Assembly (NCBI GenBank): GCA_015059445.1
Contig: SVAK01000004.1
Span: forward strand, 77,551 to 113,121
Direction: 5' to 3'
DNA: 35,571 nt
Source of the DNA: Bacillota bacterium
Lineage (GTDB): Bacteria; Bacillota_I; Bacilli_A; RF39; UBA660
A model generated the notes under the pieces. That model did not search any database and was not told where the DNA came from. It saw only the letters and a program-made list of their open reading frames with translations. Positions within the stretch are counted from its first letter, which is position 1. Each line of letters opens with the position of its first letter. Positions 7,545 to 34,190 of this stretch are shown in pieces. The translations under genes were made by a program, and so were the position numbers.

Positions 7545-8252
7545 TTAATATATTAATCCTTTCTTTTTAACTTTTTTATATACAATAAATATGATACTTA
7601 AAACACTAATTATTATAATTATATTTTTTAGAATTGTCCAAAAGTTGTTTTCTTTTTTTTCATTATAAACTACTTGGTCCATATCACTGTATTTTCTTTG
7701 AATTTTATATTTTATATTAGTATTATTTTTGTTCTGTTGATTAATTTCCCATAAATATTTATTTTTTGTTTTATTACCATTAGAATATAAAACTGGATGT
7801 TTTGTACTAATACTAATTTTTAATGTTTTGTCTTCTAGACAGTAAAATTTCCCGCTTAAACTTAGTTCTAAATAATCATTTGTACTATTAATTTTGTATT
7901 TTTCAAAACAATTAATAATATAATTTGAGTTTATGAAATCATTTTCTTTATAATTATAATTTAAAGATACTAAAACAAAGTTTTTCTTGTTTTTAATAGT
8001 TTTATTATAAAAGTAAGAGTGGTTTGAATGAATTGGTTCCTGATTTTCATATAATAAGCTATATTCCATATTTGTGCTTGAGTCATATTTATTTTGCAAT
8101 GCAATATCATATGCATTATTTTGTAGCACAATATCAATTTTTTCTTGAAAATAATAAGATATATCTAAATTATAGTAAATTATATTAATATCTTTATTAC
8201 TATAGCCCATACAAAAAACCATTCCAAGCATTATAATAAATATTTTTTTCAT
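7545..8252 (-). CDS. Membrane-anchored extracytoplasmic protein, unknown function
   Basis: I do not recognise this 235-residue protein. It starts MKKIFIIMLGMVFCMGYS, a signal-peptide-like segment without a good lipobox, continues as an Asn/Lys/Tyr-rich domain with short beta-strand-like stretches (for example YLELSLSGKFYCLED, TLKISISTKHPVLYS), and ends with one transmembrane helix (around WTILKNIIIIISVLSIIFI) and a basic tail. This implies an outside domain tethered at the C-terminus. The ATG at 8252 is chosen because AAAGGGG precedes it and it follows the upstream stop by one base. A 47-residue upstream extension would lie inside that gene. It is almost certainly co-transcribed and translationally coupled with the pilin-C39 fusion gene. 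Confidence 0.75.
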   Translation of the reverse strand: MKKIFIIMLGMVFCMGYSNKDINIIYYNLDISYYFQEKIDIVLQNNAYDIALQNKYDSSTNMEYSLLYENQEPIHSNHSYFYNKTIKNKKNFVLVSLNYNYKENDFINSNYIINCFEKYKINSTNDYLELSLSGKFYCLEDKTLKISISTKHPVLYSNGNKTKNKYLWEINQQNKNNTNIKYKIQRKYSDMDQVVYNEKKENNFWTILKNIIIIISVLSIIFIVYKKVKKKGLIY

Positions 8253-8253
8253 T

Positions 8254-9282
8254 TTAACCCCTTTCTTCAAATGCCCAAGCGCCTTTCCAACCACAATTAT
8301 TACTATCTGCGCAACGATTTTTGTTATTGTATGTTTTTTCAAACAACTCTTTCGGAGTGTAACATCCATTTTTCTTTTTATTTCCAACATCATATAAATA
8401 AACTTGCGAAGAATTACAAGTACTATGTTGTCCTAATGCTACATAATGACCAGGTATATACAGTATTACTCCCTTTCCTTCTTTTACTTTGCTTAAAATT
8501 ATATTTCCTTTTGATTCATTATAGGTTTTATCATATGAGTTACTAAATAATTTTGTTACTGATATATTAAGATATTCTAATAATTTTTTATTTGTGAAAT
8601 AAGAGTATGATAAGCCACCGTTACTACGGGTATTATTGCATATCCAACTAGCTACAATATTTGGAGTGTATTTTTTTGATGAGAAAGTGCTAGCCATAAC
8701 TGCTAGAGATGTTGCTCCACAGCCTGATGAGCAAAGTGTATTTTCGTTTTTACAAAAAGGTGTGGATCCCCATGAAGAGTTGCATTGATTATAATAAACT
8801 AATTCATTAGCATATTTTGTAATTGGATAGGTAGTATTATTATCAGGAGTTTCTATTACTATATTTTGAGATGATATAACTTGGCAAGATAATAATTGTT
8901 CTGACCATTTTAAATTTTCTCCGTTGCATTCTTTTATAGCTTGTTCCTTTTTATCTTCAAATTCTTTTTCCGTAATATTTAAGCATGATGTTAAATTGGT
9001 ACTATTTGAAGGTATTAGAAAAGAAATTATACTAACCATTAAAGTAGGAAGTAAAATAACCACTATTGCTGCAATTACTCTTTTTACCGCATTTGTACAA
9101 CTTTTTTTAATTGCAACATCATCGTTTGCAATTGAACTTTTCCCAAAGTCAATCACCGTTATAATTATTAATATTACAGGTAATATATACATAATTAAAT
9201 TGAAAATTTTTTTAATAAGTAACATAATCCTTAATATATTTAAATTATTACAAAATTGTGTTGCAAATAATAAATTTAACAT
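8254..9282 (-). CDS. Two-helix pilin-like membrane domain fused to a C39-like cysteine peptidase
   Basis: The 342-residue protein has two parts. Residues 1-90 hold a short amphipathic start and two hydrophobic helices (about 27-45 and 68-90) around a charged loop with IDFGKS and KRVIAAIVVILLPT. This pattern resembles small TrbC/VirB2-like membrane proteins. Residues about 160-340 resemble the papain-fold peptidase C39-like family: YYNQCNSSWG, then SSGCGATSLAVM with Cys188, GHYVALG with His279, and YDVG with Asp298 as a plausible catalytic triad. About fourteen cysteines suggest disulfides outside the cell. I start at the ATG at 9282, which follows GAGGTGG; a GTG at 9294 overlaps that site. 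Function, substrate and partner are unknown; the gene just downstream is coupled to it. Confidence 0.75.
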   Translation of the reverse strand: MLNLLFATQFCNNLNILRIMLLIKKIFNLIMYILPVILIIITVIDFGKSSIANDDVAIKKSCTNAVKRVIAAIVVILLPTLMVSIISFLIPSNSTNLTSCLNITEKEFEDKKEQAIKECNGENLKWSEQLLSCQVISSQNIVIETPDNNTTYPITKYANELVYYNQCNSSWGSTPFCKNENTLCSSGCGATSLAVMASTFSSKKYTPNIVASWICNNTRSNGGLSYSYFTNKKLLEYLNISVTKLFSNSYDKTYNESKGNIILSKVKEGKGVILYIPGHYVALGQHSTCNSSQVYLYDVGNKKKNGCYTPKELFEKTYNNKNRCADSNNCGWKGAWAFEERG

Positions 9283-9303
9283 TTTCCACCTCACATTAAT
9301 TAT

Positions 9304-29686: not shown

Positions 29687-29726
29687 ATTTGTGGTAAAAT
29701 ACTATAAGTAATTGAAGGTGATTGTG

Positions 29727-30632
29727 ATGACTTTTACTACCAGATTAAAAGAAGAAATAAGCAAATTAGATAATAATGAAATAGAATCAAGAAATATAAT
29801 TGATTCCTTTTTGAGATATAATGCGTTAATAAACGGAAATATTGTTATAACTTTAGAAAATGCTTCAGTTACTAGATTTGTTTATAAATTATTAAAAGAA
29901 ATATTTGGAGTTTCTCCCAAGATTATTGTTCGAGTTCAAAAAAGATTTAGAATAAAACAAATTTATATATTAGAATTAAATGAGAAAGTAGATTTTATCA
30001 AAGAAACATTAAATATAGACTCATTACCTATGATTGATAGTGATGAGGAAAAAATCGCGTTTTTAAAAGGCGCATTTTTAGGGGTTGGGAATGTTTCTAA
30101 TCCTAAAACTAGCGGATACCATTTAGAATTCATCTTAAATAAAGAAGTTGATGCAGAGTATATTTGCAATTTACTTAATTATTTTAGATTAAATGCTAAA
30201 GTTATAAAAAGAGGCTATAAATTTATTGCTTATATAAAGATGAGTGAGAGTATTAGTGATTTAATAAAAATGTTTAAAGCCATTAATTCTTTGTTTGAAT
30301 TTGAAGACACAAGAATTTATCGTGATCATAAAAATATGGTTAATAGACTTAACAATTGTGAAATAGCTAATCAAGAAAAAACTATTAAAAGTGGTCTAAA
30401 TCAATTAGATGATATTAAATATTTAGAAGAAAATGATTTAATTAATTTAATAGATGAGAAAATGCAAATAGTAATAGAATATCGCAAAAAATATCCAGAA
30501 TCATCTTATCAAGAACTCGCTGAAATCATTAGCTTGGAAACGGATTATAAAGTAGGCAAATCTGGAGTAAACCACCATTTTATTAAGTTAAGAAAAATAA
30601 AGGAAAATCATTTAAATATAGGGAAGAAATAG
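29727..30632 (+). CDS. whiA: WhiA-family DNA-binding protein
   Basis: WhiA is a homing-endonuclease-like protein with a helix-turn-helix domain, involved in division and chromosome segregation in Gram-positive bacteria. The 301-residue product has the N-terminal extension (RLKEEISKLDNNEIESRN), the LAGLIDADG-like part (FLKGAFLGVGNVSNPKTSGY, catalytic acids absent as usual) and the C-terminal HTH with SSYQELAEII and KSGVNHHFIKLRKI. The ATG at 29727 has GAAGGTGAT upstream and is preferred over a TTG at 29712. It heads a unit with the two eroded EcfA-like genes and truA. Confidence 0.95.
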   Translation: MTFTTRLKEEISKLDNNEIESRNIIDSFLRYNALINGNIVITLENASVTRFVYKLLKEIFGVSPKIIVRVQKRFRIKQIYILELNEKVDFIKETLNIDSLPMIDSDEEKIAFLKGAFLGVGNVSNPKTSGYHLEFILNKEVDAEYICNLLNYFRLNAKVIKRGYKFIAYIKMSESISDLIKMFKAINSLFEFEDTRIYRDHKNMVNRLNNCEIANQEKTIKSGLNQLDDIKYLEENDLINLIDEKMQIVIEYRKKYPESSYQELAEIISLETDYKVGKSGVNHHFIKLRKIKENHLNIGKK

Positions 30633-30635
30633 ATT

Positions 30636-31088
30636 ATGAAAGAAATAACGAATGTTACCATAGTTAGTACTAATTTAAATAGGAGATTGTTAGAAAATTA
30701 TAAAGATTATTATGTTATTGAAAACAATTTTTCTTACGATGAATTACTTCAGAAAAAGAAAGTATTATTTTTTAATATTTTAAATAATTTAAGTGATGAA
30801 AAATTGCATAAACTATTTGAATATTTAAAAGATAATAATATTTTGTTTATAAATATTACTAATGATATTGAATTGTCATTATATACAGATTATTTAATGG
30901 TTTACGATGATTCTAAAATATTAATTGAAGGTCAAACTTTAGAAGTGTTGAAAAATGAAAAGTTGTTAAAGAGAATTGGACTTAATTTACCTTTTATGGT
31001 TGAATTATCTTTTCTTTTAAAAGATTATGATTTAATTAATGAAATACACTTAAATAAGGAAAGTTTAGTTGATGAATTATGGAAATAA
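30636..31088 (+). CDS. Degenerate EcfA1-like protein (pseudo-ATPase, C-terminal half)
   Basis: The 150-residue product matches the C-terminal half of the ECF transporter ATPase EcfA1. The best stretch is RIGLNLPFMVELSFLLKDYD then HLNKESLVDELWK (residues 113-150), which follows the EcfA1 C-terminal domain pattern RIGL-LPF-LS-LL...HL-E-LV-ELW. Upstream, ITNDIELSLYTDYLMVYDD aligns with the ITHDL switch region, with Asn for the histidine. VLFFNIL stands where Walker B plus DE should be. Walker A, Q-loop and LSGGQ are absent: the protein is about 130 residues shorter than EcfA1. It cannot be a working ATPase. The frame is intact and overlaps the next gene by 10 bases. The assignment is by eye. Confidence 0.75.
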   Translation: MKEITNVTIVSTNLNRRLLENYKDYYVIENNFSYDELLQKKKVLFFNILNNLSDEKLHKLFEYLKDNNILFINITNDIELSLYTDYLMVYDDSKILIEGQTLEVLKNEKLLKRIGLNLPFMVELSFLLKDYDLINEIHLNKESLVDELWK

Positions 31089-31642
31089 AAGATATATTAA
31101 AAGATGTTAAAATTGTAGGGATAGTTAGTAATTATCAAACAAATTTAAAAATAGAAGGTAAGGTAAAAGACTTAAAAATTAAAAATATTAGTAGTGCCCT
31201 AAAAATGGTAGGTTTGGGTGTAAACTCTTTAGAAAAAAGCATATCAGATTTATCAATAAGTGAACTATGGAAATTAGAATTAGCAAGTAAATTAGATAAT
31301 GATGTTATAATAATAGGAGATATTTATAATAGTTTAATTTATAAAGACAGAGAATACATGAAAAAATTATTTGTTAAATTAAGTAATGATTACCAAAAAA
31401 AAATAGTTATTATTGATAATAATATTAATTCTTTTATAGGGGTAGTAAAAAAAATATTTGTTATTAGAGATAAAAAAATTGTATATGAAACTGGGAATTT
31501 TTTTGACCAAGAGCTATATAAATATGTGAAAATGCCTAAAATAATAGATTTTATTAAATATGTTAATAGAGATAATAATAGATTAGAAAAAACTACAGAT
31601 ATTTATGAATTGATTAAAGATATTTATAGGAGAGTTTCATAA
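31079..31642 (+). CDS. Degenerate EcfA2-like protein (pseudo-ATPase)
   Basis: The 187-residue product aligns with EcfA2 from the Q-loop region onward. VGIVSNYQTNL resembles the VGIVFQ...QL region; ALKMVGLGVNSLEKSISDLS matches the ALKLVGL...SPFELS run before the ABC signature. The signature LSGGQ is LSISE (58-62), Walker B plus DE is VIIIGDI (76-82), the switch histidine region is IDNNI, and Walker A is missing with the first 90 or so residues. The C-terminal domain (KMPKIIDFIKYVNRD) persists. It overlaps the preceding gene and truA, and no ecfT is present, so no ECF transporter can be built from this locus. Loss of motifs with intact frames suggests a non-catalytic role. Confidence 0.75.
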   Translation: MEIKDILKDVKIVGIVSNYQTNLKIEGKVKDLKIKNISSALKMVGLGVNSLEKSISDLSISELWKLELASKLDNDVIIIGDIYNSLIYKDREYMKKLFVKLSNDYQKKIVIIDNNINSFIGVVKKIFVIRDKKIVYETGNFFDQELYKYVKMPKIIDFIKYVNRDNNRLEKTTDIYELIKDIYRRVS

Positions 31643-32349
31643 TGAAGTATATGATGGTAATTAAATATGATGGTTCTAAATTCTACGGTTTTCAAAGACA
31701 AAAGAATGTAAGAAATGTTCAAGGTTATTTAGAGGAAGAAATTAGTAATGCCTTAGGTGAAAAAGTTTTAATAAAAGGTGCAGGTAGAACAGATCGTGGT
31801 GTTCATGCCTATTGTCAAGTAATTCATTTTGAAACAATTAAAAAAATAAAGGGATTAAAAAAAATTTTAAATAAAAGATTAGTAGATTTAAAAGTAAAGA
31901 AAATAAAAAAAGCATCAAATATTTTTCATGCAAGACATAGTGTTAAGAATAAAATATATTTATACAAAATTGATTTATCTAATAAAAGAGATAAAAATTA
32001 TTATTTGAGTATGAATTATAAATTAGATTTAAAAAATATGAGGTTGGCAAGTAATATGTTTTTGGGAACTCATAATTTTAAAAACTTTGTTGCTGGCGAA
32101 AGAATAGATTATGTTGGGACTATCATAAATATTAAAATCTATAGATTTAACAAGATACTGTATTTAAAATTTAAAGGTATCGGATTCTATCGATATATGG
32201 TAAGAAATTTAGTCGGGGCATTAATTGAAGTTGGTAAAGGTAAAGTAAATAGAAGCATTATCAAAGAAATGATAAATCATCCAGAAATAGAAAAGAGATT
32301 ACCTACTAGTAGTCCTAATGGTCTATATTTGTTAAAAATAAATTACTAA
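31642..32349 (+). CDS. truA: tRNA pseudouridine(38-40) synthase TruA
   Basis: TruA makes pseudouridine in the anticodon arm of many tRNAs. The 235-residue protein has YDGSKFYGFQRQKNVRNVQG, the catalytic motif GAGRTDRGVHA (Asp51), HARHSVKNKIYLYKI, and the C-terminal GIGFYRYMVRNLVGALIEVGKG. AGGAGAG lies 8 bases before the start, which overlaps the stop of the EcfA2-like gene (TAATG). In other Firmicutes truA follows ecfT directly, which supports the identity of the two genes upstream. Confidence 0.97.
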   Translation: MKYMMVIKYDGSKFYGFQRQKNVRNVQGYLEEEISNALGEKVLIKGAGRTDRGVHAYCQVIHFETIKKIKGLKKILNKRLVDLKVKKIKKASNIFHARHSVKNKIYLYKIDLSNKRDKNYYLSMNYKLDLKNMRLASNMFLGTHNFKNFVAGERIDYVGTIINIKIYRFNKILYLKFKGIGFYRYMVRNLVGALIEVGKGKVNRSIIKEMINHPEIEKRLPTSSPNGLYLLKINY

Positions 32350-32420: not shown

Positions 32421-33140
32421 ATGGTTTGTAATGAGTGTAACGCAAAGAATTCTAAAAATGATAAATTTTGTCGGAATTGTGGTAAAAAATTATCTGAAGT
32501 CGCAGAAGTTAAAGCTTTTAACAATTTAGAAAGTTTTCTAAAAAATACTTGGAAAGATATAAAAGGTATGTTTATTAAGCCTGTGGATACCGCTGAAAGA
32601 TTTATTAAAGATGATAATTATGTAACTAGCCTAATTTATTTAAGTGCTAATATCCTAGTAATCGCATTGTCTATATTAATAGCAATAAAATGTACATCTG
32701 GAGTGTTTAATAGTTATTTAGGTTTAGATTATAGTTATATAGACGGTTTTTATGAAACAATAAAGATACCTTATTTTAGAATTTTTCTAGTAACTATTAT
32801 GACTTGTGTAATAATTTATGGACTAGTAGCAGGCGTATCGTATTTAGTTTGCAATTATTTATTTAAAAGTAATACTAGTTTTAAAAAAATGCTAACTTGG
32901 GTGGGAATTAATTCCCTATTTAACACAATAATTTGTTTAATTGTAGCATTAGGTGTTTTAATGAGTGCTAAGTTAGGTATTTTTCTATATCTAGTAGGTT
33001 CAATACTGTACGCGTATAATTTATTTAAAAGTTTAGAATATGTTACAGATACTGATAAAAATAAATTAGGTTATGTGTTAACAATTTCAATAATAACAAC
33101 ATTATTAGTAGTTGTAGTTATATTACCAAACATTTTTTAA
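32421..33140 (+). CDS. Zinc ribbon membrane protein, function unknown
   Basis: A 239-residue protein with an N-terminal zinc ribbon (CNECNAKNSKNDKFCRNCG, four cysteines as two CxxC pairs), a short linker (WKDIKGMFIKPVDTAERFI) and about five hydrophobic segments from residue 65 to the end. This layout occurs in many Firmicutes membrane proteins with a DZR/zinc ribbon head and a Yip1-like or DUF-type membrane part. I do not know its function. AAAAGGAG precedes the start, and it has its own promoter. It is followed by the separate transcription unit at 33145. Confidence 0.8.
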   Translation: MVCNECNAKNSKNDKFCRNCGKKLSEVAEVKAFNNLESFLKNTWKDIKGMFIKPVDTAERFIKDDNYVTSLIYLSANILVIALSILIAIKCTSGVFNSYLGLDYSYIDGFYETIKIPYFRIFLVTIMTCVIIYGLVAGVSYLVCNYLFKSNTSFKKMLTWVGINSLFNTIICLIVALGVLMSAKLGIFLYLVGSILYAYNLFKSLEYVTDTDKNKLGYVLTISIITTLLVVVVILPNIF

Positions 33141-33279: not shown

Positions 33280-33302
33280 AGCCAAAGAAGAGGAGAAAAT
33301 TG

Positions 33303-34190
33303 ATGATAAAATTAGAACAAGTATCAACTGCAAGATTAATAGATTATTTGAGGTATAGTTATGTTCATAATAGAAAACCACAAACACAACGAGAAATTGA
33401 AATAAACCGCTGTTATGAAGTGTTAATAAAATATAATATTACTAATTTCGGACAGTTAAAAGATTATATTGATAGTGGATTAGTCGAATTTCAGATAGAG
33501 TATTTAAAAAAATCTTTATTAGAAATAGAAATAGCTGTATTTGAAGCGGCAAGAACGGGAAATGAACCAGTTTTATATTCAGCTGATGATTATGCGGAAT
33601 TTGATACTGATAGAGAAACCCTGAATATTACTGACAAAGAAACAAATGGCGGAATTTTATTATGTGGAAATATATTATCAAGGAGAACCAGTCAGAGAAA
33701 TGTTTTGAAAACTTATTCTATATATGAATTAAAACAATTGTTAAATAATGTTGTCGTTACTAGGTGTAAATTCAGAGGAGAGAATGCTTTAGTTCATAAC
33801 TTAAAAGAGGTTAGCGATGAAGCTGCTTTAAGAGTTCGTGATGCTATTAATTTTTATGAAAGACAAGTTATAAGACAAGCTGATGAGTATCAATGGAGTA
33901 GAGGTGTAAATTTATTTAGAATCGATAAGGATTTAAAAATAGAAGCTATTAAAGAACAAATTTATGATGTGATAATGTATTTATTAGATAATGCCGAAGA
34001 ATGTGTATGGGGAACTTTTACCGCTAATCAAAAAAGGCTATTAGATAAATCAATTCATGGTTCAAGAAATTATGAAGCTCAAACTGCACATGACAATATG
34101 GTTGAAGCTATAAGTAATTATACGACTTTAGGAGAACTTGAAGAAGGTTTAGTAAGAACTAGAGTTATTAATAGATTTATCAAAAATTAG
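33303..34190 (+). CDS. Unknown soluble protein, 295 residues, behind an attenuator-like leader
   Basis: I do not recognise this protein. It is soluble, rich in Glu, Asn, Arg and Tyr, with no signal peptide or transmembrane helix. The first 85 residues are helical (LIDYLRYSYVHNRKPQTQRE, then CYEVLIKYNITNFGQLKDY); the central part has NITDKETNGGILLCGNILS, perhaps a beta segment; the rest is helical (INFYERQVIRQADEYQW). I choose the ATG at 33303, with AGAGGAG 7 bases upstream; a TTG at 33300 is the alternative. Because a strong terminator stands just before it, expression probably depends on read-through from 33145. It ends before the rplM promoter and has no obvious link to ribosomes beyond its location. 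Confidence 0.75.
   Translation: MIKLEQVSTARLIDYLRYSYVHNRKPQTQREIEINRCYEVLIKYNITNFGQLKDYIDSGLVEFQIEYLKKSLLEIEIAVFEAARTGNEPVLYSADDYAEFDTDRETLNITDKETNGGILLCGNILSRRTSQRNVLKTYSIYELKQLLNNVVVTRCKFRGENALVHNLKEVSDEAALRVRDAINFYERQVIRQADEYQWSRGVNLFRIDKDLKIEAIKEQIYDVIMYLLDNAEECVWGTFTANQKRLLDKSIHGSRNYEAQTAHDNMVEAISNYTTLGELEEGLVRTRVINRFIKN

Follow-up and report, generated by a model that had tools for sequence, protein, structure and literature searches.

Conversion of both ECF motor ATPases into a conserved pair of pseudo-ATPases across a bacterial order

ECF ATPases are, to our knowledge, thought to serve only in powering vitamin uptake. What, then, maintains two genes derived from EcfA1 and EcfA2 in a genome from which the ATP-site motifs and EcfT have disappeared? 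The question is posed by two adjacent genes, hereafter A1' and A2', in the stretch of 35,571 nucleotides analysed here (the window; Table 1), which comes from a small-genome order of Bacilli. An earlier note on this DNA had read them as intact descendants of EcfA1 and EcfA2 standing in the ancestral order before truA, and ORFs, family models and Foldseek agree with that reading. A2' and truA have 1 bp in common.

Two descendants of ECF ATPases without ATP sites

A1' aligned to the C-terminal portion of EcfA1 models (PRK13635, E = 7.4e-14; ECF_ATPase_1, E = 4.3e-11) and A2' matched ECF_ATPase_2 (E = 9.4e-8), with scores of 51.6 and 31.5 bits that fall far short of the respective family cut-offs (392 and 330); Pfam ABC_tran matched neither protein. 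Solved EcfA1 chains were the top match of a profile of A1' relatives (E = 2.5e-16). The A2' profile matched ABC ATPases in general and, since it is unspecific, descent of A2' from EcfA2 was assigned from the NCBIfam match, Foldseek, gene position and intermediates. Single-chain AlphaFold2 models were obtained with pLDDT values of 92.1 (A1') and 91.6 (A2') and a pTM of 0.84 each, and ECF ATPases ranked first in Foldseek searches with both, the best match of A2' being EcfA2 4mki. Sequence and fold, intermediates included, confirm that A1' and A2' descend from EcfA1 and EcfA2. The EcfA C-terminal regions that the earlier note had recognized are indeed kept, but A1' is more than a C-terminal remnant, as it also retains the P-loop, Walker B and H-loop strands.

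Family alignment showed that the Walker A, signature, Walker B and switch-His positions are replaced or deleted in both proteins, as had been proposed from the sequence. Walker A (GxxGxGK[ST]) is absent from both window proteins and from every genus member, and no LSGGQ-like signature is found in A1' (NFSYDELL) or A2' (SISDLSISE). The Walker B Asp-Glu and the switch His are likewise absent, the corresponding positions reading FFN and ITND in A1' and IIGD and IDNN in A2'. The A1' H-loop is ITNDIEL in place of the canonical ITHD, and A2' carries VGIV at the P-loop, SISDLSISE at the signature, DVIIIGDI at Walker B and IIDNNINS at the H-loop. The sequence that separates Walker A from the signature has shrunk from 79 residues in canonical relatives to a genus average of 9 in A1, and from 85 to 29 residues in A2. 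From what is known of ABC ATPases, this stretch is presumably the part that forms the EcfT-docking groove. In ECF structures, the coupling helices of EcfT are anchored in grooves of both ATPases (PMC10368641, PMC4820897), and each ATP site is made of the Walker motifs of one subunit and the signature of the other (PMC10368641). Because the motifs are missing, A1' and A2' would neither bind nor hydrolyse ATP, to judge from their sequences.

Table 1. Coordinates of the genes and former motif positions at the A1'-A2' locus, numbered as in the window
Feature	Position	Strand	Description or basis
whiA	29712..30632	+	Upstream neighbour, in this clade only
A1'	30636..31088	+	EcfA1-derived pseudo-ATPase, 150 aa, intact ORF
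A1' former P-loop strand	30654..30674	+	VTIVSTN; GxxGxGK loop deleted (family alignment)
A1' ABC signature position	30726..30749	+	NFSYDELL in place of LSGGQ (family alignment)
A1' Walker B position	30753..30788	+	KKKVLFFNILNN in place of hhhhDEA (family alignment)
A1' H-loop position	30840..30875	+	ILFINITNDIEL; switch His replaced by Asn; T75 and E79 nearly invariant (family alignment)
A1' C-terminal domain	30936..31085	+	LKRIGLNLPF...LS..LKDY...LVDELWK; region of highest conservation in the order; invariant G115, P119, L124, L128, Y131, L148, W149
A1' stop / A2' start overlap	31079..31088	+	10 bp, from ORF coordinates
A2'	31079..31642	+	EcfA2-derived pseudo-ATPase, 187 aa, intact ORF
A2' ABC signature position	31238..31276	+	SISDLSISELWKL (family alignment)
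A2' Walker B position	31298..31333	+	NDVIIIGDIYNS (family alignment)
A2' H-loop position	31397..31432	+	KKIVIIDNNINS (family alignment)
A2' C-terminal domain	31505..31639	+	Tail ELIKDIYR, order-specific; K180 and R184 invariant
truA	31642..32349	+	Constant neighbour downstream; the place of EcfT would be between A2' and truA

The shortened pair is present throughout the genus and in two related genera. Among 37 genus genomes, A1' was found in 36 and A2' in 35, all frames being open (no broken frame in 71 genus matches) and identities ranging from 52 to 71%; genomes without one member are fragmented or have the gene at a contig end. Such retention goes far beyond what chance would leave. Lengths are nearly constant, mostly 145–156 aa for A1' and 185–188 aa for A2', as are the isoelectric points of about 5 and 8.4, respectively, and at every genus locus the gap between A2 and truA is below 250 bp. 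EcfT (PF02361) was detected in 0 of the 37 genomes, in keeping with the loss claimed for the window, and no full-length ECF ATPase exceeded the ECF_ATPase_1 cut-off in 38 genus genomes, the best match near the locus being FtsE. One genus genome (L192, G020:C42) carries a second A1/A2 pair of 243 and 209 aa, 35–38% identical to the window pair; its place on the TruA tree is with another genus, and it is probably a bin contamination.

Purifying selection and a shift of constraint

Pooled dN/dS from five close, independent species pairs, in which dS is unsaturated (about 0.22), was 0.120 (0.080–0.168) for A1' and 0.130 (0.090–0.182) for A2', as compared with 0.126 for truA and 0.033 for whiA. Genus-wide codon models, in which dS is saturated, gave omega values of 0.037 for A1' and 0.033 for A2', and of 0.044 for truA and 0.021 for whiA; omega = 1 was rejected at a cost of about 648 (A1') and 977 (A2') log-likelihood units. 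The pairwise and codon-model results both reject neutral decay and indicate that the pair is maintained as protein, so that the frames are held open by selection, as the earlier note had supposed. None of the outcomes that the note had named as contrary to its reading was observed, be it lack of a structural match to ECF ATPase C-terminal domains, frames broken or absent at random in relatives, or dN/dS near 1.

Constraint has also moved along the two proteins. Since diversity is greater in the outgroup set than in the order, conservation of the signature-to-Walker B region and of the C-terminal domain was compared through within-group ratios. For A1 these went from 0.71/0.33 in outgroups to 0.49/0.47 in members of the order that have EcfT and 0.22/0.45 in those that lack it; for A2 they were 0.72/0.20, 0.56/0.38 and 0.32/0.33, respectively. 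In canonical outgroups the catalytic core is the most conserved part and the C-terminal domains the least; in EcfT-less members this pattern is reversed in A1 and level in A2. An A2 tail of the form K-x-I-[YF]-R occurs in none of 10 outgroups; in the order it is present in 11 of 33 members with EcfT and in 72 of 98 without. The intermediate ratios and the presence of the tail already in EcfT-bearing members indicate that the shift of constraint had begun by the time EcfT disappeared.

A graded series across the order

About 190 genomes were surveyed, some 140 loci of the order and of outgroups were retrieved and annotated with profiles, and all A1 and A2 proteins were aligned. The locus stands before truA in nearly all genomes of the order that have the pair, and its forms make up a series leading from a complete EcfA1-A2-T module, through damaged A1 and A2 with an eroded EcfT and loci from which EcfT is gone, to the short pair. 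At the intact stage, found in outgroups and some genera of the order, A1 (about 270 aa), A2 (about 283 aa) and EcfT are present and the motifs whole, and in other genera EcfT is kept and the signatures are altered. In one clade (G212, G076, G091, G080 and G232; loci L083, L136, L130, L112 and L070) A1 lacks Walker A and signature in the presence of EcfT; as the sites are composite, neither ATP site is complete, and these ECF modules may, on sequence grounds, hydrolyse no ATP. Eroded EcfT of 189–228 aa is found in other members, 9 of 14 such ORFs matching the EcfT profile of the order. By regex-based motif calls, which misjudge a few rows, Walker A is kept in A1 in 66 and in A2 in 12 of 99 rows without intact EcfT, and the A1 signature in 0 of these 99 rows versus 32 of 46 rows with intact EcfT. 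At the end of the series, with forms as in the window, the proteins measure 150–160 and 185–187 aa.

EcfT was found in 42 of 193 genomes of the order sample, of which 174 have A1, and in 212 of 214 genomes elsewhere in the class. Mapped on a 145-row TruA tree, the presence of EcfT changes at least 7 times if eroded genes are counted as absent, or 11 times if counted as present, numbers that depend on that treatment and on a tree from one short protein with many open forks; four independent contrasts lie on well-supported branches. EcfT is lost several times in the order, and a 53-row clade that includes the window genus lacks it throughout. The association between losing EcfT and losing motifs was not significant in independent-pair tests, which had only four well-supported pairs. 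Among the truA genes of four genus genomes (G035, G022, G011 and G016), that of G035 is nearly equal to that of G022 (dN 0.03), yet A1', A2' and whiA differ strongly (dN 0.17–0.36); this may reflect recombination or transfer of truA, or chimeric assembly.

In a few genomes (e.g. L213, L218) the pair is cleanly missing before an assembled truA, and hence is not essential everywhere. Assembly gaps were rejected as the sole cause of missing pairs, since some losses at assembled truA loci are true; some genomes in which A1 is missing have no truA either and are uninformative on this point.

No constant upstream partner exists. Among annotated loci of the order, the gene preceding the pair is whiA in three related genera only and differs elsewhere, being by clade whiA, a short-chain dehydrogenase-like or a DivIC/YabQ-like gene (names assigned by eye). 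Downstream, rplM and rpsI follow A1-A2-(T)-truA in many relatives. In the window a zinc-ribbon and Yip1-domain membrane protein (32421–33140), seen in only 2 of 21 genus regions, is inserted between truA and rplM, as is a 296-aa ORF without Pfam match (33300–34190) found in the window genome only among those 21 regions. Two overlapping ORFs of 282 and 346 aa on the minus strand (7545–9294) also lack Pfam matches. The region contains no structured RNA at gathering scores, and a defence or phage origin was rejected for lack of PADLOC or PHROGs matches.

A putative scaffold and its rivals

Evolutionary rates were compared among seven neighbouring genes in 17 genus genomes. A1'-A2' ranked top of the 21 gene pairs (r = 0.77, p = 4.5e-7), followed by whiA-A1' (0.64) and whiA-A2' (0.60); pairs expected to interact gave 0.52 (ftsX-M23 peptidase) and 0.33 (ftsE-ftsX), and A1-truA and A2-truA gave 0.42 and 0.16. 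With ten genes in 12 genomes A1-A2 ranked second (r = 0.64) and whiA-A2 fell to 0.27, and in an earlier four-gene test A1-A2 was not separable from A2-whiA. Covariation supports A1' and A2' as a unit, and together with adjacency and conserved C-terminal domains it indirectly supports a physical heterodimer. A link of the pair to WhiA is possible, though inseparable from linkage, and TruA is a weak partner candidate.

In EcfA proteins the C-terminal domains contribute to keeping the dimer together. The explanation that we favour, with moderate confidence, is that A1' and A2' form an obligate, nucleotide-free heterodimer on these ancestral domains and are retained as a scaffold that works independently of ATP. 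The ATP sites, most of the Walker A-to-signature stretch and EcfT are gone, and the folds, adjacency and strong purifying selection are retained, with constraint moved to the C-terminal domains; the two proteins would pair via these domains in the manner of EcfA1 and EcfA2, and their dimer would act as an ATP-independent scaffold or adaptor for a putative cytosolic partner. Such a second role probably arose in the order's ancestor with EcfT still present; transport would then have been lost several times and the motor shrunk to the part needed for the second role.

Slow pseudogenisation, with remnants of a lost transporter that are still unbroken, would fit the stepwise loss of motifs and EcfT and the disappearance of the pair from a few genomes, but is hardly credible given a dN/dS equal to that of truA, the strong rejection of omega = 1, intact frames in all genus matches and near-constant lengths. 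Retention solely for translational coupling to truA, with the protein sequence irrelevant, is very unlikely: amino-acid constraint is as in truA, C-terminal residues are invariant and the predicted folds confident, and the gene directly before truA is a dehydrogenase-like one or another ORF in two lineages. In favour of coupling stand the overlapping stop-start junctions and the constant position of the pair before truA.

The ancestry of the proteins and the eroded EcfT still found in some relatives could also suggest that another membrane transporter, perhaps a leftover S-component-like protein, has recruited the pair as a non-catalytic subunit or regulator. This we consider unlikely, as the part removed is the stretch presumed to hold the EcfT-docking groove, and the S-component families PF12822 and PF07155, whose models do not cover all S-components, each exceeded the cut-off in only 2 of 193 genomes, none of them from the genus. 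A nucleic-acid- or translation-linked role, akin to the RNA/ribosome-linked factor that was one suggestion of the earlier note, is not supported. If the dimer served WhiA or TruA as partner or regulator, it would be encoded next to its target genes in the window, and the covariation of whiA with both members and of A1 with truA would be accounted for. However, whiA adjacency is confined to three related genera, covariation with whiA drops as control genes are added, that of A2' with TruA is close to nil, and in G106 the pair and an eroded EcfT persist where truA was not found; no fusions among A1, A2, EcfT, TruA and WhiA were found, and A1' is acidic. We regard it as distinctly improbable.

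Across the order, both ECF motor subunits have indeed become a conserved pair of pseudo-ATPases, and the change is well documented. A1' and A2' resemble EcfA1 (TIGR04520, ECF_ATPase_1) and EcfA2 (TIGR04521, ECF_ATPase_2) of group II ECF transporters in descent, order before truA, ABC core strands, C-terminal domains and pairing, but differ from them in lacking all four motifs, the EcfT groove region and an EcfT in the genome, and in scoring far below the cut-offs. Unlike in the published deletion of the whole ecfA1A2T, only EcfT is removed in the window, the ATPases being shortened and non-catalytic and the A1-A2-(T)-truA order kept. TAP1/TAP2 exemplifies ABC heterodimers with one degenerate ATP site; catalytic residues are lost there too, but activity persists at one site and the membrane part is still present, whereas both sites are gone in A1'/A2'. 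HisZ is an example of a pseudoenzyme kept as a regulatory subunit, and likewise combines loss of catalytic residues with selection on the protein; in A1'/A2', however, both members of a heterodimeric motor were converted and a graded series is visible. No description of paired EcfA pseudo-ATPases was found in the open-access literature.

The pair appears to have a second, ATP-free job hitherto undescribed, and points to an undescribed role of EcfA C-terminal domains. Enzyme function was lost in parallel in both motor subunits, together with the membrane scaffold, and nearly every intermediate is alive, providing a natural series in which to follow the change of an enzyme pair into a scaffold. 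More tentatively, and as a possibility we would not favour outright, EcfA1-EcfA2 may have been dual-purpose in the order, with an ATP- and EcfT-independent C-terminal function that preceded the loss of transport and led to a new protein family made up of paired pseudo-ATPases; in that case a second role might also be found for ordinary EcfA1A2 dimers elsewhere. The series has implications for vitamin supply, too: EcfT is kept by mycoplasma-like members of the class that have genomes of 0.7–0.8 Mb, but not by most of the order. The S-components covered by PF12822 and PF07155 are nearly absent from the order even where EcfA1-A2-T is complete. In G183 an EcfT-like gene with an in-frame stop lies beside an S-component-like gene (C9:7072-8933), on a contig other than that of the eroded pair, and perhaps represents a separately acquired ECF system.
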